From Aphrocallistes beatrix (taxonomy: Eukaryota; Porifera; Hexactinellida; Sceptrulophora; Aphrocallistidae), in assembly GCA_963281255.1 (NCBI GenBank), contig OY725495.1:186001-250000 (forward strand): 64,000 nucleotides of DNA. Direction: 5' to 3'. Position 1 is the stretch's first letter. Every line of letters begins with the position of its first letter. Both the position numbers and the translations under genes were made by a program. The notes beneath the pieces are model-generated. The model searched no databases and was not told the origin of the DNA. It worked only from the letters and a program-made list of their open reading frames with translations. Positions 3,243 through 63,509 of this stretch are shown piece by piece.

Positions 3243-4049
3243 CTATTTCTCAGTAGTGAATACGTCGAGTAATTTAAGAAGAACATTTTTGCCTTCTTGA
3301 AATGCAATAATAATATCATTAGTAGTAGTAGACGCGATGCCTCTTGGCTGGAGGCATTGAAAGTCTGAAGTATCAAGCAAATGGATAAACTTACCTTTAT
3401 TAGAAATGATTTTAACCTTGTTCACTTTCCAATCTGTGATAAAGTAACAGTCATCAACACCGATTGTAAAGTGACAGGCGTTTGAAAAGGGGATGGAATC
3501 GTAATTGATCAGAACGGAGGCAACCAACTCTCCATTCTGGGAGTTAAGTAGTTTGATCAAGTTAGTATCTACTTCTAAAACATGAATAATCCCCTGTTTA
3601 ACCTGGATATCATAAGATACGCTTATAACTCCTTTCGCAAGGCATCTCAAATATTCTAAATTAGTGCTGAAAACGCTTATCCTCTGCTTATCAGCCTCTA
3701 GCACAAATACTTCATCCTCTTCGAGAGAAACTGCAACAGGATTGTACAGCATCAGCATTTCTTCAGCAGGTTTCGTTTTCAAAAGTGAGAAATCAACAGA
3801 AGAAAATTTATAGAAAAAGTCTTTGAAATAGTCCGTAACATAAATTGCCTCGTTTGATAGAGCAATGCCTCTCGGGTAGCGTAGAACTCCTTTGCCGAAT
3901 TGTGCCAAATACTTAAGATTCCCGTCCCACACTTGTACACGGCCGTTGTTAGCATCAACCACATAGATATTCCCTGTGAGGGGATCTAGTTTCACTGCAC
4001 GAGGCTGGTCGAATTCAGTAGGACCATGCCCGTGCCTGCCTACCTGCAT
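3243..4049 (-). CDS. NHL-repeat beta-propeller protein (possibly missing a 5' exon)
   Basis: About 268 residues made largely of NHL-type blades. The first blade is clear: a GPTEFDQPRAVKLD stretch followed by GNIYVVDANNGRVQVWD, then a second with YPRGIALS and IYVTD. NHL propellers usually bind RNA or protein partners, and in TRIM-NHL proteins they follow a RING and coiled coil, which are absent here. The frame is open to a TTG at 4052, but the first ATG is at 4049. The sequence around it (TGATGCAG then GTAGGC) could also be a splice acceptor, so the ORF may be the last exon of a longer gene; I found no convincing upstream exon before DNMT3 ends at 4387. The protein resembles in kind the coiled-coil/NHL gene at 62307. 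Function unknown. Confidence 0.6.
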   Translation of the reverse strand: MQVGRHGHGPTEFDQPRAVKLDPLTGNIYVVDANNGRVQVWDGNLKYLAQFGKGVLRYPRGIALSNEAIYVTDYFKDFFYKFSSVDFSLLKTKPAEEMLMLYNPVAVSLEEDEVFVLEADKQRISVFSTNLEYLRCLAKGVISVSYDIQVKQGIIHVLEVDTNLIKLLNSQNGELVASVLINYDSIPFSNACHFTIGVDDCYFITDWKVNKVKIISNKGKFIHLLDTSDFQCLQPRGIASTTTNDIIIAFQEGKNVLLKLLDVFTTEK

Positions 4050-4386
4050 CAAACTACAAACGTATTTAAAACTTTTTAGTGTTAATTTTTAGTGTTTCGT
4101 AGTACAAACTTAAAATTATTAATATTTATTTCAAAATTACAGGTTTGTGATAAATTAGGTCGCAAATACAACTAAAACAAAACATAACATCAATATAAAA
4201 TAAAGCAAGTTCAAATATGAGGTGATAGTAGCAGAATATCTATAATTAAATCCAAAATCTAAGTTCAGAAGGGATGTAGTACAGATTTAATCTAAATTGA
4301 GCTAATCCACCAGATGAAAAATGGGGATACAAAATAAGATGTATTTCTTAAAAAATAAAGTGAAGATCTGAGGAGGATACTCTTAT
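4050..4386. other. Intergenic, nothing recognised
   Basis: AT-rich spacer between the NHL gene and the 3' end of DNMT3. It would hold the DNMT3 3' UTR and the NHL promoter. No ORF, RNA or repeat seen. Confidence 0.6.
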
Positions 4387-7300
4387 CTAGATTACTGCAG
4401 GCGGGGTGGACTTAAAGTAGCCTTTGAGGGGTGCGAGAACATATTTGATGACAGGGACACACCAGGCATTCTCAATAAGTGACTGTCTATTCTCTATGCT
4501 CGTGTTACATACGTCGGTAAAGTGCTGAGGCAGACCGTGTATTTGCTCAAACTCGCTCACGAAGAGATTATCATCTTCCATGTCTGAATCGCCCATTCTG
4601 TTCTTGACAGGGTACACAGTTTCCCTTGAACGACTGCTTCTGTAACTCGGAGGCTTAACTTTGTCAACTTTAGCATGGCGATCTAGTCCGTTCATTAAGC
4701 ATTCTTGAAGATGGATTTTGGTGTTGTGTCCCGGTACCTTGGGCCTGTTCAGTCCGGGGATGTTACTCCAGAAGTATCTTTGGTCATCAATAGCTGAAAA
4801 TTGTTTAATGCAGATAGTGACTGGCTCTTGCGCTAAAAATCGCGATATTGTGTCTCTATCTTCGTTCTTCATTGACTCTGTGTTTTCGAAAAACCAGAAG
4901 AAGGAACGATTGTCGTCATTATTTGGAAAGCAATAATTTAGAATTCTATAAAATTCAAAAACCAGAGGCCCAGTGCCCCTCTGGTCATAAAGTCCCTTTC
5001 GATTTGGGTTTTCTGTAGACAGGTCTTGGCTTGGAGGACCAGCGCACACCAAATCAAACGGGCCCCACTTGTCAATATCTTCCAAAGTGATCTTCTTAAT
5101 ATCGCCTACATGTGTGATTTTTGAGAAATTACACTGTGAAATTCTCTGAGCACCAAGATCGATTTCTGAGGCGATATAGCAATCTATTTCAAAACCGAGT
5201 TCTTTCAGAGCTAGCAGACTGGTGGAAATTCCGTCGAATAGCGCCAATACGCGTAGAGGAGTACGGGCTTTTGCTGGTCGTGGAGGAGGGATATCTACCG
5301 CTCTGTACTTAAACGGGTGGTCAGTTGAAGTGTTGCGAAATACTTGGAGTAACCTTTCATTCCAATCTGGCCTTACTCTCAGGTTATTAAGGGAGAGTGG
5401 ACCTTCTTTGTCCGCTTGCTGACATAGGAAACAGTGCCACTCAGACTTGTTAATAATATTTTCCTTCTCTTCCTGAGAGATAAGATCTTGAATACAACTC
5501 TGACAAAACGAAGCACAGGAAGAATTGTTGCATATGACAACATTCTCCCCACCAGCACAGATGGAGCAGTACTCTTGCTCTCCGTTCTCGTCAAAAAGAT
5601 AGAAACAAGCCTGGAACTCTCTGAAACAGCGTTCACAGAACCCGCCTTCAATGAGTGGGTGTTCCTGGAGACTTTGATCATGCCTAGATGGGAGAGTTAA
5701 TATCAAAGAGACACGTGTGAAACACCAGACAGACATGATGAATATTAATTACCAGCAAACTTCTGAAATAGAAGAAAAATGTATAATAATCACTTACGTA
5801 GGGAGAAATTAATTGTGAATTATGATTTCTCTAAAAAATGCATATACATGCATAAATCATAATGCCATGTTCAGGAATTCAGGAATTTCGAAAGGATTTT
5901 GCGAAGAATTTATTGTTAACGTATAAATTTTTTTTTGAATAGTATTGAAACATCTAAATATATTCAATTAAATGCTAATTTTACCAATTAAATTTTAAAA
6001 TAAAGAGCAAATTAAATATTAATATAAAAACTTACTTGTGACAACCGAGACAGAAGTTTCGAATTTCGATTTTCCCTCCCCTCAACAGATCAAGATTTTC
6101 TTTATTATTTTTGCGTTCCTTTTCCGCCCTCGAATCGTGCAAAATATGCTCCTCTGAATCACGGAAACTAAAACGCCTCTTTTTGATCTTAGCAGTATCA
6201 AAAGCACAAAGTTCTTCATTCGATTCAATCTCGCTACCAGAATCAATCATTTGGTAACACGGAGCGATTGGACTCATTTCATCTTCACAGCGAGTTAACA
6301 GTCCGGCTAGATTGTACGGTGGGAAGCCCTTCAATGCCCAGGCTAACTTCACCTGTTCATCTTGGGTTAAACTGTAGAGCGATTGGATTTCTTTCTGCTT
6401 TTCTTTCGAATTTCGATCATTCAAAATATCTTCGAAAATGACAGGAGTCGAATCATCCTCTTCCTTAGCATCCGTGTCTGAAGAGAACTTGGTTCGTTTA
6501 TACAGTTCAGTTCTTTTCTTTGAAACATCGATACATTTGAAGATGGCATTTTTATAGGTTGGGTTCGAAAAACTAGGCAAGGACAGAAGTTGAAGGAAGC
6601 TGGTTATAGGCTTGATATTCTTATGCAGCACATCAGAGTATTGGTATTCCCCGAACCAGGTCACCCACTGACAACCCTGAGGGGTTTCAGTCTTTCCGAT
6701 CACACTAGGAGCTATCACCATTCCTGGCCACCACTCGCAGCTCTTAATCTTGCCCCATATAATGCTCCCGTACTCGAATTGCTGAGAGATGCTAGAAGTT
6801 GTGCGACTTCGTGATTTCACTGACAACGGTGGTCTCCCTCGTTTCAGTTTGCCTGATTCGCCGAATGAACTCTGGCTCATGTATTTCGGTGGTCTCCCGC
6901 GACCTCTCTTGCTGATGTTATTATCATCAGTTGGCGTCCTTGCCAGTCCAATGTATCCATTTTTATTGGATTTCGGTCTGCCTCTAGGTCTGGGAGATGT
7001 CGGCGTCTTTTCATACATTTGGTCGCTGAAGCTACTGCCTGGGGTTGGTAGCTGGGGGGATGACGTGGAAAAAGTTCTTTTGCTGCTCGCTGAGAAAGGT
7101 ATCTTCAAATCCTGAGGATAAATCCTTTTAGCCTTCTTGATAGGATTTTCACATTCTTCTGATGAATCGTGGAAATGTCGCTTCGTAGATGTGGGTAGTA
7201 GCATTTCCTCTGAGTCGACATCATAGGACTCAGGTTGCTTTAGGATAACTGTGGTGCTTGATTCTGCCGTGATAGGGGTATGCCTAAGTTCAGTTGTCTC

Positions 7301-7444
7301 GATCGTATTCACAATATGAATATCCGTATTGGGGTGCTCGTTATTGGGCGTGAGAGGGACCACAATGTATCCGGACCCCATGGATTCTGAGGACTCGGGT
7401 AAGATGGCAGGGATGCTCAGGTTAATTCTCTCTTCTGATGTCAT
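4387..7444 (-). CDS. DNMT3: DNMT3 family DNA cytosine-5 methyltransferase, catalytic Cys replaced by Ser
   Basis: De novo methyltransferase architecture in two exons, 7444-6036 and 5683-4387, joined across a 352 bp GT-AG intron (phase 2, AA|G giving Lys 470); 901 residues. Residues about 150-207 carry three AT-hook motifs (RPRGRPK, KRGRGRPPK, KRGRPP), then a PWWP domain (223-310; core EWWPGMV). A cysteine-rich ADD zinc module starts as CLGCH at the end of exon 1 and continues with CERC, CSIC, CQSC and CFLC in exon 2. The methyltransferase has motif I (LALFDGIST), WGPFDLV, motif VI (FFENT), QRYFW of motif VIII and a C-terminal VPVIKYVLAPL. Motif IV, normally P-C-N/Q, reads GPPSQDLS: Ser 688, codon AGC at 5029-5031. 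Motif X, GRSW in DNMT3A, reads ENAW. The family assignment is secure; enzymatic activity is doubtful, and the protein could instead act as a DNMT3L-like regulator or reader. A TATA-like site lies 46 bp upstream. Confidence 0.92.
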
Positions 7445-17655: not shown

Positions 17656-18030
17656 CTGCACCTCCTAACATATATCTATCTATCTCTCTGAAAGATGTCT
17701 TCTTACGGAAGGTTTAGCAGAGTCATGAATGTACAGATGTTTTCAGCTAATTTTGCAATGATTTCTGTATATAATGTATCAAATTGATAAAAAGAACAAT
17801 CAATGTATAATTCAAAGGATAAACAAACGCAATATTTGTAAGAAATGTGACTGAACTGCAACTCTAGATTTGGATATCAAATGCAAACTAAATGCAGTAA
17901 TTCTAATGACGGAGATTGAGCTAATTAGTGTAATATAATCCAATCACGAGTTCTTATGAAATAGGATTAAGTCTCCATCTGACTGATTAAATAGAAATTC
18001 CAATAATATTTCTTAAAATAAATTAATCCA
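17656..18030. other. Intergenic, nothing recognised
   Basis: AT-rich spacer holding the 3' UTR of the secreted protein gene and the promoter of the first ammonium transporter. No clear TATA box, RNA or repeat. Confidence 0.5.
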
Positions 18031-19710
18031 ATGGCTGGTTGTCCCGCAGACGGTGTATATGACGTGGCTTGCCAGGATTTGCATCAGGACTATCGCTACA
18101 CAGAAGCCGGGGCCGCCTGGACGCTGCTGAGCGCTATGATCATGTTCTTCATGCGAGCAGGATTCCTAATGATAGAGCTGTCATTCGCTGAAGAAGTACC
18201 CGAGAAAAGGAACATTGTACTCTTCAAATACCTCGACGTGGTAGCCTCTGCAATAGCATTCTGGTTATTCGGGTTTCAGCTGTCCCATGTATTCGAAGAC
18301 GACTCCGTTTACTATAATACAGTACTACCCATCATATCCATTAACTGTAAAAAAGTCCTGCCCTACATTGTCTGGTTCTTCAAGTTCGGTTTCGCTAGTA
18401 ACACAGCAACGTTAATGGGAGGATTGTTAATAAAGTCCAAATACAGATTGAGATTGATGTCAGGATTTTTGAGCTCCTTTTTCGTCAGTGGACTAATCCA
18501 TACAACCATCGCACGCTACATATGGGGTGGTGGAAAGGATGATTTTCTCTCACCATATAGATTCTGTAACGAGAATATTACCCAGAATGGATCAAACTAC
18601 TTCGGCAATCTATATGTGTTAGATTTCGCAGGTGGAGGTACAGTCCATTTAGTTGGAGGCACGGCTTCGCTTGTGCTTACATTATTTGTGTCATTACAAT
18701 TGTTCATGGACAAGCGAGCTCGAGGTAATAATAGAGTTAGGCCAGCCGAAGTGGAAGATGAAGAACACAATCCCAATAGGCCAAATAATTTCATTGAATA
18801 CATGTACCCAAAAAACGGAGGACAAGACACGATAGAAAACGCAGCACTCGGGGTGTTTATCCTATGGTTCGGATGGTTCGCGTTCAATTGCGGGACAACC
18901 GAGAGTTTGCAAGGTCCAAGCAAAAGCTTGGAGACCTACAGCAACGTGGCGGGAAGGATCGCAGTGAATATGATAACGTGTGCTGCTGGTGGAGGCTTGA
19001 CTGCTACGATCATTGCTGGCTTCGTCCAATTCTTAACAGATGCAAGAGCTATCAACTGTAACGAAATCGCGAATGGGATCCTCACGTCATTAGTCGCAAT
19101 TACGAGTAACTGTCCTTATGTGGATAACGTTAGCGCGTTTTTCATTGGCGCGATCGCAGTTTTCCTCTACCACATAGGCGTGTATACCGAATACAAACTG
19201 AATATTTTCGATACGGCACGAATTATTCCGGTGCATTTATTCGGTGGGATGTGGAGTCTGATATCAACAGGTCTATTCATTGCGTCTGTTCCGAAAGAGT
19301 ACGTGAAAGAGACTTACGAAGGAGTGTGCTACTGCAAGCTTCGAATACCGATTCTCAGCTATTTCGAGAGGCTCGGGGCCCAATTACTTGGAGTCGTATT
19401 CATGATGAGCCTAGCATTCGTAATGGCATTCATTATATATCTAATAATGTACATAATTCGGCTTGAGTACATTATTAGAAAGATACCGGTCATTGGACAA
19501 AGGATAGTGGAAAAATTAAATTTGGGGAAAGGAGGATTGCTTTTTGTAGGGGAAAACCCTGTTGATGCGATGTTCCCACCGGATGATTTCGAGTATGGAA
19601 GTTTGGGAAATAGGAACGCACATCGAATGGTGGAGGAACCTCCTAAACCAGCTACAAATACGGAACCTTTGTTGCCAGAGAGAAAGGCCAGCATAAAGCC
19701 GAATACTTGA
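18031..19710 (+). CDS. AMT: Amt-type ammonium transporter, copy 1
   Basis: Intronless, 559 residues, with about eleven hydrophobic segments. Amt/MEP/Rh channels pass ammonium or ammonia across membranes. The Amt (not Rh) type is shown by DFAGGGTVHLVGG, which holds the first pore histidine and the conserved Asp, by GWFAFNCGTTESL, and by a second pore histidine in IIPVHLFGGMW. The usual AGFALLEAG signature reads AGFLMIELSF and the AATATI segment reads SNTATLMGG, so the protein is diverged. A charged loop (about 225-260, DKRARGNNRVR) and a soluble tail follow the family plan. In a filter-feeding animal it could release or scavenge ammonium, or serve symbionts; this is inference. A close paralogue lies 312 bp downstream. 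Confidence 0.9.
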   Translation: MAGCPADGVYDVACQDLHQDYRYTEAGAAWTLLSAMIMFFMRAGFLMIELSFAEEVPEKRNIVLFKYLDVVASAIAFWLFGFQLSHVFEDDSVYYNTVLPIISINCKKVLPYIVWFFKFGFASNTATLMGGLLIKSKYRLRLMSGFLSSFFVSGLIHTTIARYIWGGGKDDFLSPYRFCNENITQNGSNYFGNLYVLDFAGGGTVHLVGGTASLVLTLFVSLQLFMDKRARGNNRVRPAEVEDEEHNPNRPNNFIEYMYPKNGGQDTIENAALGVFILWFGWFAFNCGTTESLQGPSKSLETYSNVAGRIAVNMITCAAGGGLTATIIAGFVQFLTDARAINCNEIANGILTSLVAITSNCPYVDNVSAFFIGAIAVFLYHIGVYTEYKLNIFDTARIIPVHLFGGMWSLISTGLFIASVPKEYVKETYEGVCYCKLRIPILSYFERLGAQLLGVVFMMSLAFVMAFIIYLIMYIIRLEYIIRKIPVIGQRIVEKLNLGKGGLLFVGENPVDAMFPPDDFEYGSLGNRNAHRMVEEPPKPATNTEPLLPERKASIKPNT

Positions 19711-20022
19711 ACGATGGATATTAATGCTATGCTCGTAAATGTTGCTCAAGTATCAAAATTTGTTCTAAAATGTTATTTGTAAAAAGTGTAAAGTATATTT
19801 TGACTTTAATAATTCATGACAAAAAGAGTTGCAGCATTTTTGAGATTGTGTACTTGTGGATGTATAGTCAAAAATGGTGCAACTCATTGTGCCATGGGTT
19901 AATTAATAATTCAGACAAAGTGTAGATATATCTAGTTACAAGAGGGCCTAATCTACAGAAAGTAATGTTCGAGTGATGTATTTAATAGGTTTTACAGGCA
20001 ACATGGTTCAATATTTCTCATA
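19711..20022. other. Spacer between the two Amt genes
   Basis: 312 bp, AT-rich, long enough for a 3' UTR and separate promoter, so the two genes are probably transcribed independently. Nothing else recognised. Confidence 0.5.
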
Positions 20023-21660
20023 ATGGCTGAGTTTACTTGTTTAGAGAACGGGTCGTACCCCCTTGAATGCCAGGAACCTCACCCATTCTATCGATATAGT
20101 GAAGCGTCGGCCGCGTATACTCTGATCTGTGCAATGGTGATATTTTTCATGAGGGCAGGTTTTATGATGATTGAACTTTCATTCGCAGATGGCATTCCTG
20201 AGAGAAGGAATATCGTCCTGATTAAATATCTCGATGTAGCAGCAAGCGCAGTAGCATTCTGGTTTTTCGGATTTGAAATATCGAATATCAATGGTGATGG
20301 TTCCGTGTTTCAAAATACGGTGATTCGTATCGACCCTATTTCATGTAACGCTGCGTTGCCTTACATCGTATGGTTCTTCAAATTCGGTTTCGCGAGCAAC
20401 ACGGCTACGCTAATGGGGGGACTGCTTATAAAGTGCAAATATAAGCTGAGAATATTCTCTGCGTTCATGAATGCATTCATCGTGGCAGGTATTATACACC
20501 CAGTCATTGCTAGGTTCATTTGGGGAGGGAGCCCGAGTGATTTTCTATCACCTTACAGATTTTGTGATAAAAAAGTCGATGCCAATGCTCCACTCTTGGA
20601 CAGAATATACCTGTTGGATTTCGCGGGTGGTGGTGCAGTGCATTTAGTAGGAGGGATGGCATCCTTGGCTTTGACCTTACTAGTATCTTTCCAGCTCTGG
20701 TGGGATAAGAAAAAAAAGAAAGAGGAAACCAAAGAAGAAGCTCCCAAGAAGAATAAAGTGGTCGCGCACATCAAAGGTTTCTTCCAGTACATGTATCCAC
20801 GGAGCGGGGGTGATGACGTCATCGAATACGCTGCCCTTGGGGTGTTCATCCTCTGGTTCGGCTGGTTCGCATTCAACTGCGGAACCACCGAGAGTCTCGA
20901 GGGACCATTCCAGAATTATCCCGTCTACAGTCGCGTTGCAGGCAGGATAGCAGTCAACATGATCACATGTGCAGCAGGGGGGTGTCTAACCGCGACTCTT
21001 ATCGCATCCGTAATCCAAACAGTAACTAAAGGCAAAGCCATTAACTGCAATGAAATAGCGAATGGCATTCTTACGGCATTGGTCGCAATCACAAGCAACT
21101 GTCCTTATGTTGATAACATCAGTGCGTTTTTCATAGGGATTATCGCAGTATTTCTCTACCACATTGGGGTATACCTCGAGTATGCAGCCGGAATTTGGGA
21201 CACAGGTCGCGTGATTCCTGTACATGCAGTAGGGGGGATGTGGAGTTTGCTCGCTAGTGCATTATTCGTGCTTCATGACATTCCGTATGAATACGTTAGG
21301 GAAACTTATGAGGGAATTTGTTACTGCAAACTCCGACTACCGTTTCTGCAGTACTATGAGAGACTAGGAGCACAAATCTTGGGAATAGTGTTCATTTCCA
21401 TATTCTCATTCGTGTTGGCATTCGTTTTCTACTTAATTTTCTTTGTAATTAGGCTGGATTTTCTCTTTAAAATCGGAAAAACGAGTATGGGTGAGGCAAT
21501 AACAAAAGCATTCAAGCTTGGACCGGGCGGAATTTTGCTGATAAGTCAAGATGAGACTGAAGTCGATCAGAAGGGAGAGGGGTTAGAATTTGAATATCGC
21601 GGAGACTCTAGAAGTACATTAGGGGGAATAGACCAGAATGCTAAACTTGAGGTTACCTAG
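20023..21660 (+). CDS. AMT: Amt-type ammonium transporter, copy 2
   Basis: Intronless tandem paralogue of the preceding gene, 545 residues, with the same diagnostic blocks: AGFMMIELSFADGIPERRN, DFAGGGAVHLVGGMAS, GWFAFNCGTTESLEG and VIPVHAVGGMW, so both pore histidines are kept. It differs most in the extracellular loop after the first hydrophobic segments, in a Lys/Glu-rich cytoplasmic loop (KKKKKEETKEEAPKK) and in the C-terminal tail, where Amt trimers are commonly regulated. The shared CNEIANGILT and TSNCPYVDN stretches show a duplication old enough for clear divergence. Confidence 0.9.
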   Translation: MAEFTCLENGSYPLECQEPHPFYRYSEASAAYTLICAMVIFFMRAGFMMIELSFADGIPERRNIVLIKYLDVAASAVAFWFFGFEISNINGDGSVFQNTVIRIDPISCNAALPYIVWFFKFGFASNTATLMGGLLIKCKYKLRIFSAFMNAFIVAGIIHPVIARFIWGGSPSDFLSPYRFCDKKVDANAPLLDRIYLLDFAGGGAVHLVGGMASLALTLLVSFQLWWDKKKKKEETKEEAPKKNKVVAHIKGFFQYMYPRSGGDDVIEYAALGVFILWFGWFAFNCGTTESLEGPFQNYPVYSRVAGRIAVNMITCAAGGCLTATLIASVIQTVTKGKAINCNEIANGILTALVAITSNCPYVDNISAFFIGIIAVFLYHIGVYLEYAAGIWDTGRVIPVHAVGGMWSLLASALFVLHDIPYEYVRETYEGICYCKLRLPFLQYYERLGAQILGIVFISIFSFVLAFVFYLIFFVIRLDFLFKIGKTSMGEAITKAFKLGPGGILLISQDETEVDQKGEGLEFEYRGDSRSTLGGIDQNAKLEVT

Positions 21661-51650: not shown

Positions 51651-51658
51651 TATAAAAG
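51651..51658 (+). promoter_or_regulatory. TATA box for PNPLA6/NTE
   Basis: TATAAAAG only 31-38 bp before the ATG at 51689, implying a 5' leader of roughly ten nucleotides. Confidence 0.55.
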
Positions 51659-51688
51659 AATTTCAATCGAAAATATTCCCACAACACA

Positions 51689-54600
51689 ATGGAAGAAGAG
51701 GCCGGTTATACAATCCTGTACTACCTTGAAACGAAGAATATCATCATCCTATTCCTGTTCTTCTTCCTCATATACTGGTTCTTGTACCGGAATAGTAATC
51801 CGAACACCTCCAGTCATCGAGATGCATCCAGACGTTCCAGTCGACGCAGATTCTCTCCGTTCAATCTTAGACATTACAAAACTGTTTCACAATCAGAAGT
51901 ATCTGAACTGAATTCTCCCTCTAATAGTACTAAGCGCAAGCGCACCATACGAAAACGTGATAGGTTCATAGGTGTTATGAAGCGCATTTTGAGTGTTAAT
52001 GACGTACAACCAGCTTCCATACCATCGAGTCCTCCTCAGGAGTATTTTGACCCATCAGAAGACATGAGCTATGACAACCCACAGACACCATTACCACATG
52101 AAGTCATTCTCCTCCTTAAGAACCTTCAGATATTCGGACATTACGAAAAACCGATGTTCATTGAGTTCTGCAAATCTGTTGAAACCCAATTTGTCCCAGC
52201 TGGTGCTTGGCTGTTCAGGCCTGGCAACAAGGAGGATTGCATATTCGTCGTACAACGTGGAAAGCTAGGCATCCATGTCCTAGAGAACCAACAGGATCTG
52301 TTGATTAGTGAGGTAGATGAGGGACATCCCGTCTACAGTCTGCTCAGCCTCACTGCTGAGTTGATTGGCTTTCCTCAGGTCTACAAGACGATCGCAGCAC
52401 AAGCCATGACTGACTCCACCGTGATTAAACTTAAAGTAGAGCATTTCAAAAACTATCTGGAACAAAACCCAGACACTTTTTTGAGAATATTGCAAGTGTT
52501 AGCCATCAATTTAATGCGAATAAATTTCCTGGCTCTTCATAAGTATCTTGATTTGCAATCGGTTCTGCTTCAGGATTACAAAGTGCCTGGTGACCAAGCG
52601 GAAACGCCCCCTTCAACACCTAGAAGAGATTCCCTGATGTCGCCGCGAAAAAGTAGACCTTCCGTACGGTTTTCAATGGAGGAAGAAAAAGGTACGGATT
52701 TTGATACCTTCCTACATCAGGCGAAATTGAGTCCAAGTTCGATCCTTGAAATGCCAAGTATCACAATTGATGAATACTCTATTGAAGGAGAAGAAAACGC
52801 GAGTGCCATTGAGAAAGAAGAAGCGAAAGCTTTAGAAAAAGCTCGAGAAAAGTTAGCAGAAATTTTCCAACTCCAGGACCCAAGCTGTCTGAACAAAATG
52901 ACGCAGTTAATCTGCATGCCAAAAGGGACCATTGTGTACTCGGAAGGAGATCTCAAGGACTTCGTCTACTACGTGTACAGCGGGAAGTTGGTGACTACGA
53001 GCAGGAACCCTGAAGGGACGCCGGTCAGCCTGTACTATGTGCACCCGGGAGAGATCGAAGGGTCATTGCCAGTTCTGACTGGTGAGCCTAGCGTCTTCAC
53101 CCTCACTACTCTAACAGACGTCCAACTCATCCTAATTTCCAAGCCCCAGCTCTTCATCTTATTCAAGGAAGAGCCGCATGTGATTCTCCCAATGGCGAGT
53201 AGTATTGTGAATAGGCTATCACCTTTCATGCGACAAATCGACTTTGCTTTGAATTGGATTCCATTGGATGCGGGCGTCGTCTTGTACAAGCAAGACGACC
53301 CATCTACCTCTGCGCACATCGTTCTCAGTGGCAGACTGAGGTCTTTCACTACGAATGAGAAGGGCTCGAAAGAGTTGATAGAAGAGTTTGGCCGTGGTGA
53401 TACAGTGGGTATGGTGGAGGTCGTAACTAAGTCTCCATATGCGACTACAGTGTACGCCATACGAGACACGCACTTAGTAAGTCTACCCACGGGGCTTCTC
53501 AACTGGATTAAGGTCAAAGCGCCCCAGGTCGTCTACCGACTCATTCAGTTGTTAGGCGAAAAGGTCCTCGGTTCATATAAGAAGACTCATGCAATAAATA
53601 AGCTGCCTAGCACAGATCTGAACAGCTTCATTGGTAACAAAAATGTGTCAACTGTCGCGATAATCGGCGCTAACCCCTCAGTGCCAGTTGCTAGGTTCTG
53701 CGAATGGCTTTTATCAGCAACGAACAAGTTTGCTCACTCGCGGTTGTTGTCAAGTTACTCAGTGCAACAAGAATTCGGACAGAGTTTGATGAAAATCGCG
53801 AATGATTACAGGTTGATCACTTGGCTGGAGAGGCAAGAAGAAGACAACGAATTATTACTCTACCAAGCTGACCCTAAATTAACCGCTTGGACCAGAAGGT
53901 GTTTGAGACAGGCCGACTGTATCCTCATTGTAGATACAGCCGAAAACGGCCCTTCAATCGGTCCAATCATTAAGCAGTTGAACACTTCGCAGAATTTGGT
54001 ACAGAGAGCCTTGGTGCTTTTGCATAGAGAAAGTACAGTTATGCCAAAAGGTACTGCGATGTGGTTGAAAGAGGTGGGATATTGCAGCGGAAGATTCCAC
54101 ATCCGGTGTCCTGATGTCCTATTCACCGAAATAAACCGGTACGAAGGCTCTGAAACAGATGACGATGAGAGCATTACTCTACCGGTTTCCCCACGTAGTG
54201 ACATATCCCGGTTAGCTCGTTGGCTGACCGGAAACTCAGTGGGGCTGGTGTTAGGTGGTGGGGGTGCGAGAGGTGGTGCCCATGTAGGAGTTCTGAAAGC
54301 ACTCGCGGAGTCTGAAATCCCTGTAGACATCATAGGAGGTACTAGCATGGGGGCGTGCATAGGCGCTATTATTTGTCAGGCACGCGATCATAAACAAGTT
54401 GAAGAGATGGCCTGTAACCTGTTTAAGGCGATGGCATCACCTTGGCGCCAAATCCTCGACATTACAATCCCGTTCACTTCCATGCTGACAGGTGCACACT
54501 TCAACAACGTGTTGCGTAATGTGTTGGGCGATCACATGATTGAGGACTTGTGGATTCCATTTTTCTGTGTCTCAACGGATCTGACGGAGAATAGAATGCG

Positions 54601-55429
54601 GGTGCATCAGAATGGACCGCTGTGGCCGTATGTCCGTGCTAGCATGACACTTGCCGGGTATTTTCCGCCGATTTGTGAGCCGCAAGAGGGGAACCTGTTA
54701 GTGGACGGCGGTTATCTGAATAACTTACCAGCTGATGTGGCCAAGGTGTTAGGCGCTAAAACAGTCCTATCTGTAGACGTATCTGGCGAGGTGGTGAGCG
54801 ATTTCTCCAACTACGGCTACCACTTAAATGGTTGGTGGGTGATGTGGAAAAAATGGGTTCCTTTCACAGGAAAGGTTAACATTCCATCCATGGGAGAGAT
54901 TCAACGTGCTCTAGCTTATGTAGCGTCCGTACAGCAACTGGATGAGATCAAAGCTTCGGACTATGAGTATATTCGCCCAGCTCTGGGAAAGTTTGGGCTG
55001 TTACAGTTTAGCTCTTATAAAGATATAACCGACATCGGATATGAGAAAGTTAAATCATTAGCCGAAAGTTGGAAAAAGAACCCTCAGCTTATGCGCAGTC
55101 TCTTCTCAATATCTACTTGCGACGAGCCCCAACACGGCAAGAAGATCTACTCAACACCACATCCCAAACCTGGCAAACAAGAGTCGTTTTCGCGTCTCCG
55201 CTCTCTCTCCAACCTAGCTGCTCTCGCTGCCACCAATGTTCCCCACGCTCCACTCACTGCTGACCGCACTGGGTATTGGTCTAGCCCAGATGCAACTTTG
55301 TGCGTGGAGAATGCTACTATACACAAATGTTCATCTGAACCTAACCTTATCTCAGATTCAGAGAACAATACAAGTTCTGATCTTACGAGTCACGCAACAA
55401 GCACGGAAGAGATTAACCAAGCGAACTAA
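51689..55429 (+). CDS. PNPLA6: Neuropathy target esterase (PNPLA6/7) lysophospholipase
   Basis: Intronless, 1246 residues. NTE is an ER-anchored phospholipase B that deacylates phosphatidylcholine and lysophosphatidylcholine. An N-terminal membrane helix (about 16-38, FLFFFLIYWFLY) is followed by a basic/Ser-rich linker, then three cyclic-nucleotide-binding-like domains (about 145-275, 400-510 and 520-630; e.g. VPAGAWLFRPGNKEDCIFVVQRG). The patatin domain (about 850-1020) has the glycine-rich oxyanion loop GLVLGGGGARGGAHVGVLKA, the nucleophile in GTSMG (Ser 886) and the dyad Asp in VDGGYLNNLP (Asp 1006). Both catalytic residues are intact. The Ser/Pro-rich tail is less conserved. The ortholog could equally be the single ancestor of PNPLA6 and PNPLA7. 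Confidence 0.96.
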   Translation: MEEEAGYTILYYLETKNIIILFLFFFLIYWFLYRNSNPNTSSHRDASRRSSRRRFSPFNLRHYKTVSQSEVSELNSPSNSTKRKRTIRKRDRFIGVMKRILSVNDVQPASIPSSPPQEYFDPSEDMSYDNPQTPLPHEVILLLKNLQIFGHYEKPMFIEFCKSVETQFVPAGAWLFRPGNKEDCIFVVQRGKLGIHVLENQQDLLISEVDEGHPVYSLLSLTAELIGFPQVYKTIAAQAMTDSTVIKLKVEHFKNYLEQNPDTFLRILQVLAINLMRINFLALHKYLDLQSVLLQDYKVPGDQAETPPSTPRRDSLMSPRKSRPSVRFSMEEEKGTDFDTFLHQAKLSPSSILEMPSITIDEYSIEGEENASAIEKEEAKALEKAREKLAEIFQLQDPSCLNKMTQLICMPKGTIVYSEGDLKDFVYYVYSGKLVTTSRNPEGTPVSLYYVHPGEIEGSLPVLTGEPSVFTLTTLTDVQLILISKPQLFILFKEEPHVILPMASSIVNRLSPFMRQIDFALNWIPLDAGVVLYKQDDPSTSAHIVLSGRLRSFTTNEKGSKELIEEFGRGDTVGMVEVVTKSPYATTVYAIRDTHLVSLPTGLLNWIKVKAPQVVYRLIQLLGEKVLGSYKKTHAINKLPSTDLNSFIGNKNVSTVAIIGANPSVPVARFCEWLLSATNKFAHSRLLSSYSVQQEFGQSLMKIANDYRLITWLERQEEDNELLLYQADPKLTAWTRRCLRQADCILIVDTAENGPSIGPIIKQLNTSQNLVQRALVLLHRESTVMPKGTAMWLKEVGYCSGRFHIRCPDVLFTEINRYEGSETDDDESITLPVSPRSDISRLARWLTGNSVGLVLGGGGARGGAHVGVLKALAESEIPVDIIGGTSMGACIGAIICQARDHKQVEEMACNLFKAMASPWRQILDITIPFTSMLTGAHFNNVLRNVLGDHMIEDLWIPFFCVSTDLTENRMRVHQNGPLWPYVRASMTLAGYFPPICEPQEGNLLVDGGYLNNLPADVAKVLGAKTVLSVDVSGEVVSDFSNYGYHLNGWWVMWKKWVPFTGKVNIPSMGEIQRALAYVASVQQLDEIKASDYEYIRPALGKFGLLQFSSYKDITDIGYEKVKSLAESWKKNPQLMRSLFSISTCDEPQHGKKIYSTPHPKPGKQESFSRLRSLSNLAALAATNVPHAPLTADRTGYWSSPDATLCVENATIHKCSSEPNLISDSENNTSSDLTSHATSTEEINQAN

Positions 55430-62091: not shown

Positions 62092-62306
62092 ATTCCCTAT
62101 ATCATTTTACTCATCATTGTTTCATATATTAATTGTATTCTAAAGCTAATTTATGTTTTTTACATTCACATTTATCGAGGAATACATCAATATCCAGTTT
62201 GTTCTAGTTTTAATATAAAACCGCATCTAAAATGCACTTGAAAATTTCCAATAATAACCCTGACATAAAGCATTGCTTCGTGAGTTAGAATAGTGGACTG
62301 TGTAGG

Positions 62307-63509
62307 ATGCAATGCGAGCTGCCTTCATTCACAAGAACAAAGGTTCCCAGCGATAAACTAAATAATCTTGAAAATCAGATAAACGCCACTTTCGATGGGA
62401 TCATAGACAAGGTTAACAGGAGGAGGATAGAAGTGCTAGATAGGCTGAGGGAGGCGGTGGATAAGAGTAAGAAAGCTTCCGATTCCATTAAAAAGCTCGA
62501 TCAGAGTAAACATAAATTTCAAGAAGATTTCAGTGAAACATTGGGTGATGTTCGTGAAGAGATGCTCTCAATAGTGGACAAAAAGATTGCTACAATTAAT
62601 TTAGAAAATCCTGAATACATGTTCGTCTGCGATCAGCTGGAACTGGACAGAGCTCTATCCATACTCGGGGGGATTGTTAGGGTCCCTACGGAATATAACA
62701 GTAAACTCAAACCGATGTCATCTTGCAATATCGAATTCAAATCGCCAATCGCTATTTCCTTTGACGAGTCTTTGAATCTTATTGCTTTGATTGGTCATAA
62801 CAAAAACGAAGTCGTTTTGTTTGATATAGATGGAAACATTGTTAATCGAATTCAGGACATCTCTTTCAAGGAGTTGAGAGCAATCGAGATGGTGGATCAT
62901 CGAGATATCTACATGACAGATATTGAGACGAACGAAATCTTTAAATACAATACTCTGGAAGGAAATTTCGTTGGGAAATTCAATCGAGTTTGCAAATCAC
63001 AAGAAAAGTTGAAGAGGCCCAGCGGAATATGTTTTGATAAATTCACTAATTCTATTTTCGTCACATTATCAAACTCCCATTCAATAGCAGTGTTCAATAC
63101 AGATTTGTTAAAAACCGATGAATTTAAACCTGAACTGATGTTCCCTCAATTCATCCAAACGACGGAAAACGAGATATTCATATTGGACTGTAACAATCCC
63201 TGTTTGCATGTCATTTCAAAAAAGGAACGAACTGCCCTACGTTCAATGATTCCAAGAGGATTTGAATTGTACTTTCGAAAGGGGATAACCCGCTTCAGTT
63301 TGGATCCAAAGGACAACATTTTGATTATAAACTTCACAAACAAACTCTCAAGTTCCATCCAAGTATACTCTCCCTGTGGACAGTTGATCCATGTCCTCTC
63401 TAGCAAAGAAATTGGCTCCATTCCGTGTCTGTTTCATGTTAAAAGCAACTTTGAGATTGTCACAATCGCTTTGTTTCAAAGAAAAGGTTGGGTGATTCAG
63501 ATATTATAA
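62307..63509 (+). CDS. Coiled-coil plus NHL-like beta-propeller protein
   Basis: Intronless, 400 residues. Residues about 15-110 form a coiled coil (NLENQINATFDGIIDKVNRRRIEVLDRLREAVDKS), followed by six-bladed propeller-type strands from about 140 onward (SPIAISFDESLNLIALIG, ELRAIEMVDHRDIYMTDIETNEIFKY, RPSGICFDKFTNSIFVTLS, EIFILDCNNPCLHVIS). The order matches the coiled-coil and NHL half of TRIM-NHL proteins, but RING and B-box fingers are missing. It starts about 215 bp after the giant coiled-coil gene. It may belong to an expanded family with the NHL ORF at 3243-4049. Function unknown. Confidence 0.75.
   Translation: MQCELPSFTRTKVPSDKLNNLENQINATFDGIIDKVNRRRIEVLDRLREAVDKSKKASDSIKKLDQSKHKFQEDFSETLGDVREEMLSIVDKKIATINLENPEYMFVCDQLELDRALSILGGIVRVPTEYNSKLKPMSSCNIEFKSPIAISFDESLNLIALIGHNKNEVVLFDIDGNIVNRIQDISFKELRAIEMVDHRDIYMTDIETNEIFKYNTLEGNFVGKFNRVCKSQEKLKRPSGICFDKFTNSIFVTLSNSHSIAVFNTDLLKTDEFKPELMFPQFIQTTENEIFILDCNNPCLHVISKKERTALRSMIPRGFELYFRKGITRFSLDPKDNILIINFTNKLSSSIQVYSPCGQLIHVLSSKEIGSIPCLFHVKSNFEIVTIALFQRKGWVIQIL

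Follow-up and report, generated by a model that had tools for sequence, protein, structure and literature searches.

Locus and domains of the DNMT3 gene

We analysed a stretch of 64,000 nucleotides from the glass sponge Aphrocallistes beatrix (hereafter the window), which is positions 186,001 to 250,000 of contig OY725495.1, i.e. contig 9 of 28 in a 100.5-Mb assembly (GCA_963281255.1). It carries a gene of the DNMT3 family of DNA cytosine methyltransferases in which a serine stands in place of the catalytic cysteine. The gene lies on the minus strand, from 7444 to 4387, and a splice model with sites placed from sequence alone gives two exons and 901 amino acids without stops; all features given below for this gene are on the same strand. 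Exon 1 (6036..7444) is an open frame from an ATG at 7444 to a GTAAG donor, and contains an N-terminal tail, an AT-hook, a PWWP domain and the first cysteine pair of the ADD domain. An intron of 352 bp (5684..6035; GTAAG...CATCTAG) lies inside the ADD domain. Exon 2 (4387..5683, stop at 4387-4389), which has Pfam and PDB matches, contains the remaining ADD domain and the entire methyltransferase domain. The spliced ADD domain aligns with the gene model of Oopsacas minuta (P0002).

The presence of PWWP and ADD domains, stated in a preliminary description of this DNA, was borne out by Pfam. The PWWP domain is at 6593..6769 (PF00855, 1.3e-9), the exon 2 part of the ADD domain at 5422..5667 (PHD finger 5422-5568; PF21255, 8.3e-10) and the C5-methyltransferase domain at 4411..5265 (PF00145, 7.2e-17, and alignment with DNMT3A). 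The AT-hook, the PWWP domain, the ADD PHD finger and the C5-methylase domain passed the Pfam cut-offs; the GATA1-like finger of the ADD domain, with only exon 2 as input, scored slightly under its cut-off (23.6 vs 26 bits), because the intron divides this finger. Among the PDB matches of the exon 2 part, DNMT3 chains were far ahead of other C5-methyltransferases, with 419 query residues aligned to human-named DNMT3A chains and 4u7t_A as the best (E 2.5e-106). The order of the domains is PWWP, then ADD, then C5-methyltransferase, likewise in P0002. By this order and its sequence relationship to DNMT3A/B, the gene is a member of the DNMT3 family. An AlphaFold2 model, on which no claim rests, has a mean predicted local distance difference test score of 60.1, with methyltransferase core blocks mostly at about 80-94 and low values for the ADD and target-recognition domains.

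Residues lost and kept in glass-sponge DNMT3s

The closest protein among the matches listed is the DNMT3A-named protein of O. minuta, a hexactinellid, with 70% identity over the ADD and methyltransferase domains; the other 96 listed are at 44% or less. Two ENA proteins, P0216 and P0217, are 69-71% identical to the window DNMT3 and 79-81% to that of Oopsacas. In a maximum-likelihood tree of 23 C-terminal sequences, built without an outgroup and midpoint-rooted for drawing, the glass-sponge DNMT3s form one clade with a support of 100/100. Identity and tree together suggest that P0216 and P0217 belong with the glass sponges, which gives four lineages for comparison. The branch that separates this clade from the others is about 2.07 changes per site (1.69 + 0.38), while the path from the window to Oopsacas is about 0.5. 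This pattern suggests that change was concentrated in a single burst along the stem and that constraint then returned.

The motif IV codon at 5029..5031 reads AGC and gives Ser688 in place of the catalytic Cys710, its minus-strand context (5031-5029) being FDLVCAGPPSQDLSTENPNRKG. In the PDB-chain alignment SPCND of DNMT3A stands opposite PPSQD, so that the serine in the PCN motif, the central claim of the preliminary description, was confirmed. AGC is one base from TGC, and a sequencing error or a decaying pseudogene could also give such a reading. P0215, a protein from a separate contig of 655,626 bp, agrees with the window exon 2 frame at all but one of 449 residues, and its motif IV is PPSQ; this answers in part the concern that raw reads might carry TGC, as the reads behind P0215 are possibly not independent. 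The motif is PPSQ in Oopsacas, PPSH in P0216 and PPTQ in P0217, i.e. Ser/Ser/Ser/Thr at the cysteine position across the four lineages (window, Oopsacas, P0216, P0217). Decay is opposed by the open frame of 901 amino acids and by the identity between lineages, 69-81% over the shared C-terminal part and 60% over the full length for the window and Oopsacas. Since P0215 and the three other lineages have Ser, Ser, Ser and Thr, an error or a pseudogene is extremely unlikely, and the serine at 688 is probably real. The position is variable inside the glass-sponge clade, yet not a cysteine in any of the four lineages seen.

The comparison set (P0002-P0214, 213 proteins) came from two protein searches, the second being the best 120 of 2489 matches, and consists, with Oopsacas set aside, of 212 proteins, mostly of vertebrates, rich in fish and including isoforms. 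Among these matches listed the cysteine is present in 212 of 212, and likewise in two later matches, P0218 and P0221; P0219, P0220 and P0222 stood outside the alignments. An alignment with the DNMT3s of other sponges, proposed in the preliminary description, gave the same result. Those of Corticium, Oscarella, Dysidea and P0107, which we take from its name prefix to be Sycon, all keep PC(N/T) and both arginines of motif VIII.

In motif VIII, Asp770 (4783..4785) replaces Arg790. Among the matches listed, 210 other DNMT3s have a residue at this position (2 have gaps), which is Arg in 209 and Lys in 1, whereas each of the four glass-sponge lineages has Asp; the first arginine of the R-x-R is therefore gone. 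The second, Arg772 (R792; 4777..4779), is retained in the window and in one other lineage, and is Ser or Asn in the remaining two. Mouse residue 786 corresponds to human 790, given the offset of the catalytic cysteine (706 vs 710), and Table 2 of PMC4802922 lists mouse Dnmt3a R786A, R786E and R786K at 2, 3 and 4% of the wild-type rate, as upper limits. The same source reports that the covalent complex is absent for mouse R786 or R788 mutants and that R788A keeps up to 12%. The change of R790 to Asp is the most telling sign of lost catalysis, and supports it more strongly than the missing cysteine alone.

This change had escaped the preliminary description, as had those at V716, in the target-recognition loop and at R882. 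The DNA-intercalating V716 is replaced by Glu694 (5011..5013), the four lineages having E/D/E/E; all 212 other proteins among the matches listed have V or A. According to PMC6316889, C710 is the covalent anchor, and V716 and R836/T834 contact the CpG. In the target-recognition loop (4630..4656) T834 and T835 are replaced, and the SNSIKQ stretch is shorter by three residues. R836 is kept, being Arg or Lys in glass sponges and other DNMT3s alike. R882 is Ile in the glass-sponge proteins; its column, with those of S837 and N838, is displaced by gaps in the 214-row alignment. Motif X (4462..4473) reads ENAW in place of GRSW in the DNMT3A and family alignments, as previously noted, with G890 and R891 changed in all four lineages; R891 varies elsewhere too.

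Additionally, we compared the methyltransferase columns that are invariant in 19 non-glass-sponge DNMT3s, picked by hand for diversity. Of these 86 columns, the glass-sponge lineages change 19, 20, 20 and 21. The 15 columns altered in every one of them include (in DNMT3A numbering) S708, C710, V758, R790, T834, T835 and G890. When each of the 19 DNMT3s was left out in turn, it changed only 0-4 of 86-90 columns.

The Phe-Asp-Gly of motif I, where S-adenosylmethionine (SAM) is bound (5230..5238), and Glu736 of motif VI (E756; 4885..4887), already described as retained, are indeed kept in the four lineages. Together with F640-D641-G642 and this glutamate, E664, D686 and W893 are kept in all four, and so are F732, F772, H873, D876 and R885. 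We take these residues to be SAM-binding or part of the FF and RD interfaces, and a catalytic site that appears dead is accompanied in every lineage by F732 and F772, presumably of the FF interface. Both interfaces of DNMT3 are described in PMC11555716. As a separate observation, the sponge DNMT3s P0107 and P0103, whose catalytic motifs are otherwise kept, have Ala or Gly in place of the SAM-binding D686. Both are presumably of Sycon type, judging by name prefix and similarity.

Two explanations would keep the protein an enzyme. It may be a slow DNA methyltransferase working without the covalent cysteine, for instance by direct transfer with the Ser or Thr and the Glu in the pocket. Motif I, E756, D686 and W893 would fit this, Ser and Thr still bear a hydroxyl, and the ratio of observed to expected CpG (CpG o/e) is a little low. 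DNMT3A catalytic-domain variants without the cysteine reportedly keep some activity. This explanation is nevertheless unlikely, as Asp stands in all four lineages at a position where A, E or K leaves at most about 2-4% activity, the second arginine of motif VIII is lost in two, V716 is E or D, the target-recognition loop is shortened, and G890 and R891 are changed throughout. Alternatively, SAM may be kept for another substrate (RNA or protein) or as a signal. The conserved SAM contacts and motif VI Glu beside many lost contacts to DNA and cytosine speak for this, and the long stem branch followed by constraint resembles a change of function. Against it, G890 and R891, near SAM, are changed in all four lineages, R891 not being invariant elsewhere, and we know of no precedent in the DNMT3 family for methylating another substrate. 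We regard such a switch as improbable.

The chromatin-reading domains are present with altered contacts. The PWWP cage residues F303, W306, W330 and D333 (PMC13031684) are C/W/W/E in the window, aligned by eye on the WWP and WFGD motifs. In the same way, D529, D531 and Q534 of the ADD domain, which contact histone H3 unmethylated at K4 (PMC6316889), are D/N/Q, aligned by eye on the PDB match. The zinc-ligand cysteines of the ADD domain are kept in the glass-sponge proteins wherever these are covered, P0216 covering only the last ones. The proposal that chromatin reading was kept finds partial support, F303 being Cys, D333 Glu and D531 Asn. With these cage and ADD residues, it is plausible that nucleosome and histone reading is retained in altered form.

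DNA methylation genes in the genome

A PF00145 scan of the 100.5-Mb genome gave four matches, three of them pieces of one DNMT2 gene and the fourth the window DNMT3. The first DNMT2 piece, with PPCQ intact, matched tRNA(C38) methyltransferase (E 4.7e-28) and human DNMT2 (8.2e-28), and the scan was sensitive enough for a DNMT2 piece at 29 bits. No second DNMT3-type methyltransferase was found in it, which answers in part the suggestion of the preliminary description that an intact second copy might exist. The search for DNMT1, also suggested there, gave no credible match to the human C-terminal catalytic query; this query did not recover DNMT2 either, and therefore only a fairly similar DNMT1 would be seen. 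A 20-bit match on contig 15 is interrupted by three stops and was regarded as a chance hit.

Profile searches, made without a positive control, gave no genome match for DNMT1-RFD (PF12047), SRA (PF02182), CXXC (PF02008), Tet_JBP (PF12851) or zf-4CXXC_R1 (PF10497), while those for BAH, MBD and AlkB did recover genes in the same genome. The AlkB family is represented by four genes on contigs 12, 11, 17 and 13 (L038-L041), best matched by ALKBH1, ALKBH8, ALKBH6 and ALKBH7, and neither ALKBH2 nor ALKBH3 was detected among them. In most organisms the presence of ALKB2 tracks that of DNMT1 and 3, as stated in PMC9246332. The six BAH matches include two each on contigs 1 and 8, the others being on contigs 17 and 7. 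The pair on contig 1 adjoins a bromodomain frame and is of polybromo type by eye, and that on contig 8 is of MTA type by eye, with only BAH confirmed. No methyltransferase frame was seen by eye beside them in the stretches viewed, which were partial. The first of two MBD matches adjoins a pre-SET-like cysteine stretch and is of SETDB1 type by eye.

CpG o/e is 0.795 and CpA/TpG is 1.09 in 19 x 10 kb of the genome, compared with 0.841 and 1.07 in the window. Some unmethylated genomes have a CpG o/e near 0.8, so this measure does not decide on the presence of 5-methylcytosine (5mC). In 56 long open frames, a small and uncurated sample, CpG o/e is unimodal, one component being preferred by the Bayesian information criterion (-33.9 vs -24.7), and CpG correlates with TpG/CpA at -0.52, possibly partly for arithmetic reasons. 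The gene inventory agrees with the earlier suggestion of little de novo methylation, and the mild CpG depletion leaves it undecided.

Near the DNMT3 gene, 200 N at 1604-1803 form an assembly gap; the long coding region around it, on the minus strand, is VPS13-like by eye. An NHL-repeat propeller protein (3246-4088) lies directly downstream of DNMT3, and a further NHL-like open frame was seen by eye at 62289-63509. The window also contains a tandem pair of ammonium-transporter-family genes on the plus strand (18022-21660), single long open frames of 562 and 564 amino acids, and a neuropathy-target-esterase-type gene (51656-55429; cNMP-binding, NTE P-loop, patatin) in a single open frame of 1257 amino acids.

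A gap of this kind could hide a second DNMT3, an active one, or a DNMT1, or such a gene may have been missed, and the window DNMT3 would then be its helper in the manner of DNMT3L. The FF and RD interface residues are retained, mammalian DNMT3L is such a case and Daphnia DNMT3.1 is thought to be one. However, PF00145 found only DNMT2 and the window DNMT3 despite its sensitivity, the human DNMT1 query had no credible match and ALKBH2 was not found. As no other DNMT3 was found, we consider a helper role very unlikely.

A proposed methylation-independent role and its known counterparts

The glass-sponge DNMT3 appears to have been kept in good order while the parts that perform the chemistry were lost. 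We consider it likely that the only DNMT3 found has been a pseudo-methyltransferase since the stem of the sampled glass-sponge clade, and that it serves chromatin as a scaffold or repressor independently of methylation, in a lineage without DNMT1 and with most or all 5mC lost. The protein would be unable to flip, hold and attack cytosine, and DNA methylation by it would thereby be lost. It may still fold, perhaps bind SAM, and self-assemble through the retained FF and RD interfaces. It could dock on nucleosomes by the ADD domain, on the H3 tail unmethylated at K4, and by the modified PWWP domain, and so serve as scaffold or repressor, in a host lineage that may have lost DNMT1 and most or all 5mC. 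As no DNA cytosine methyltransferase other than the tRNA enzyme was found beside it, DNMT3 probably survives for a non-methylating job. Of the earlier proposal of lost methylation with kept chromatin reading, the loss of chemistry is well supported, especially by motif VIII, and the reading only partly so.

Several observations weigh against this interpretation. An enzyme in full decay would not usually have motif I and the Glu of motif VI intact as here, two of four lineages still have R792, and the Arg or Lys at R836 is that of active enzymes; the reported activity of cysteine-less DNMT3A variants points the same way. With F303 changed to Cys and D531 to Asn, the reader functions are in doubt, and unequal divergence times may explain part of the branch-length contrast. 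The gene inventory covers one of the four lineages, that of the window, with the limits of the DNMT1 query and of the profile searches given above, and mild CpG depletion is no proof of absent 5mC.

A broader proposal, that glass sponges lost 5mC (with DNMT1, a UHRF1-type SRA, TET and ALKBH2 gone) and kept only a dead DNMT3, probably for hundreds of millions of years, is more tentative, and we place it slightly below an even chance. If true, the chromatin function of DNMT3 would be separable from methylation and sufficient to keep the gene. In mammals, the active partners make it difficult to establish whether DNMT3 has an essential methylation-independent role; a lineage in which the sole DNMT3 found is dead and yet conserved would be a natural experiment, in which the retaining force must be methylation-independent. 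Glass sponges would then represent a second state within sponges, beside Amphimedon, for which PMC9246332 gives methylation at vertebrate levels.

We found no published account of a dead DNMT3 that is the sole one found and is kept across a clade, supplements and subscription papers being outside the scope of this search; neither the O. minuta paper (PMC10280926) nor the Aphrocallistes vastus paper (PMC10282587) has "dnmt" in its main text. Two other papers that came up, PMC12569314 and PMC6429109, deal by title and abstract with plant ageing and organophosphorus natural products. The O. minuta protein is named DNA (cytosine-5)-methyltransferase 3A isoform d in the database but lacks the cysteine, and this label of an active enzyme is therefore probably misleading.

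The separate elements have precedents: DNMT3L, DNMT3B3 and Daphnia DNMT3.1 are dead DNMT3s, and Trichinella and Trichuris have a DNMT3 in the absence of DNMT1. Mammalian DNMT3L is a catalytically dead relative with ADD and methyltransferase fold that assembles through the FF interface. The earlier comparison with it is apt for the dead chemistry and fails for the role, since DNMT3L has an active DNMT3 partner and none was found here; the glass-sponge protein also has a PWWP domain, an intact motif I and the RD residues. Daphnia magna DNMT3.1, an invertebrate DNMT3 kept as a functional gene, lacks five of the six methyltransferase motifs and stands beside DNMT3.2 with all six (PMC8016896), whereas the glass-sponge protein retains motif I and no further DNMT3 was found beside it. 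The DNMT3B3 splice form and a catalytically inactive mouse DNMT3B allele have accessory or methylation-independent functions beside active DNMT3s (PMC11555716, also cited in PMC8016896), of which none was found in the glass-sponge genome. A methylation-independent role has precedent in these, since PMC8016896 cites inactive DNMT3B rescuing knockout embryos and repression by DNMT3A/B without catalysis. Trichinella and Trichuris likewise kept DNMT3 after the loss of DNMT1, which is unusual across eukaryotes, but T. spiralis is methylated (PMC9246332) and the glass-sponge enzyme itself looks dead. Finally, the orthologues of the other sponges (Corticium, Oscarella, Dysidea and P0107) share the PWWP-ADD-methyltransferase order and, unlike those of glass sponges, have the motif IV cysteine and both motif VIII arginines intact.
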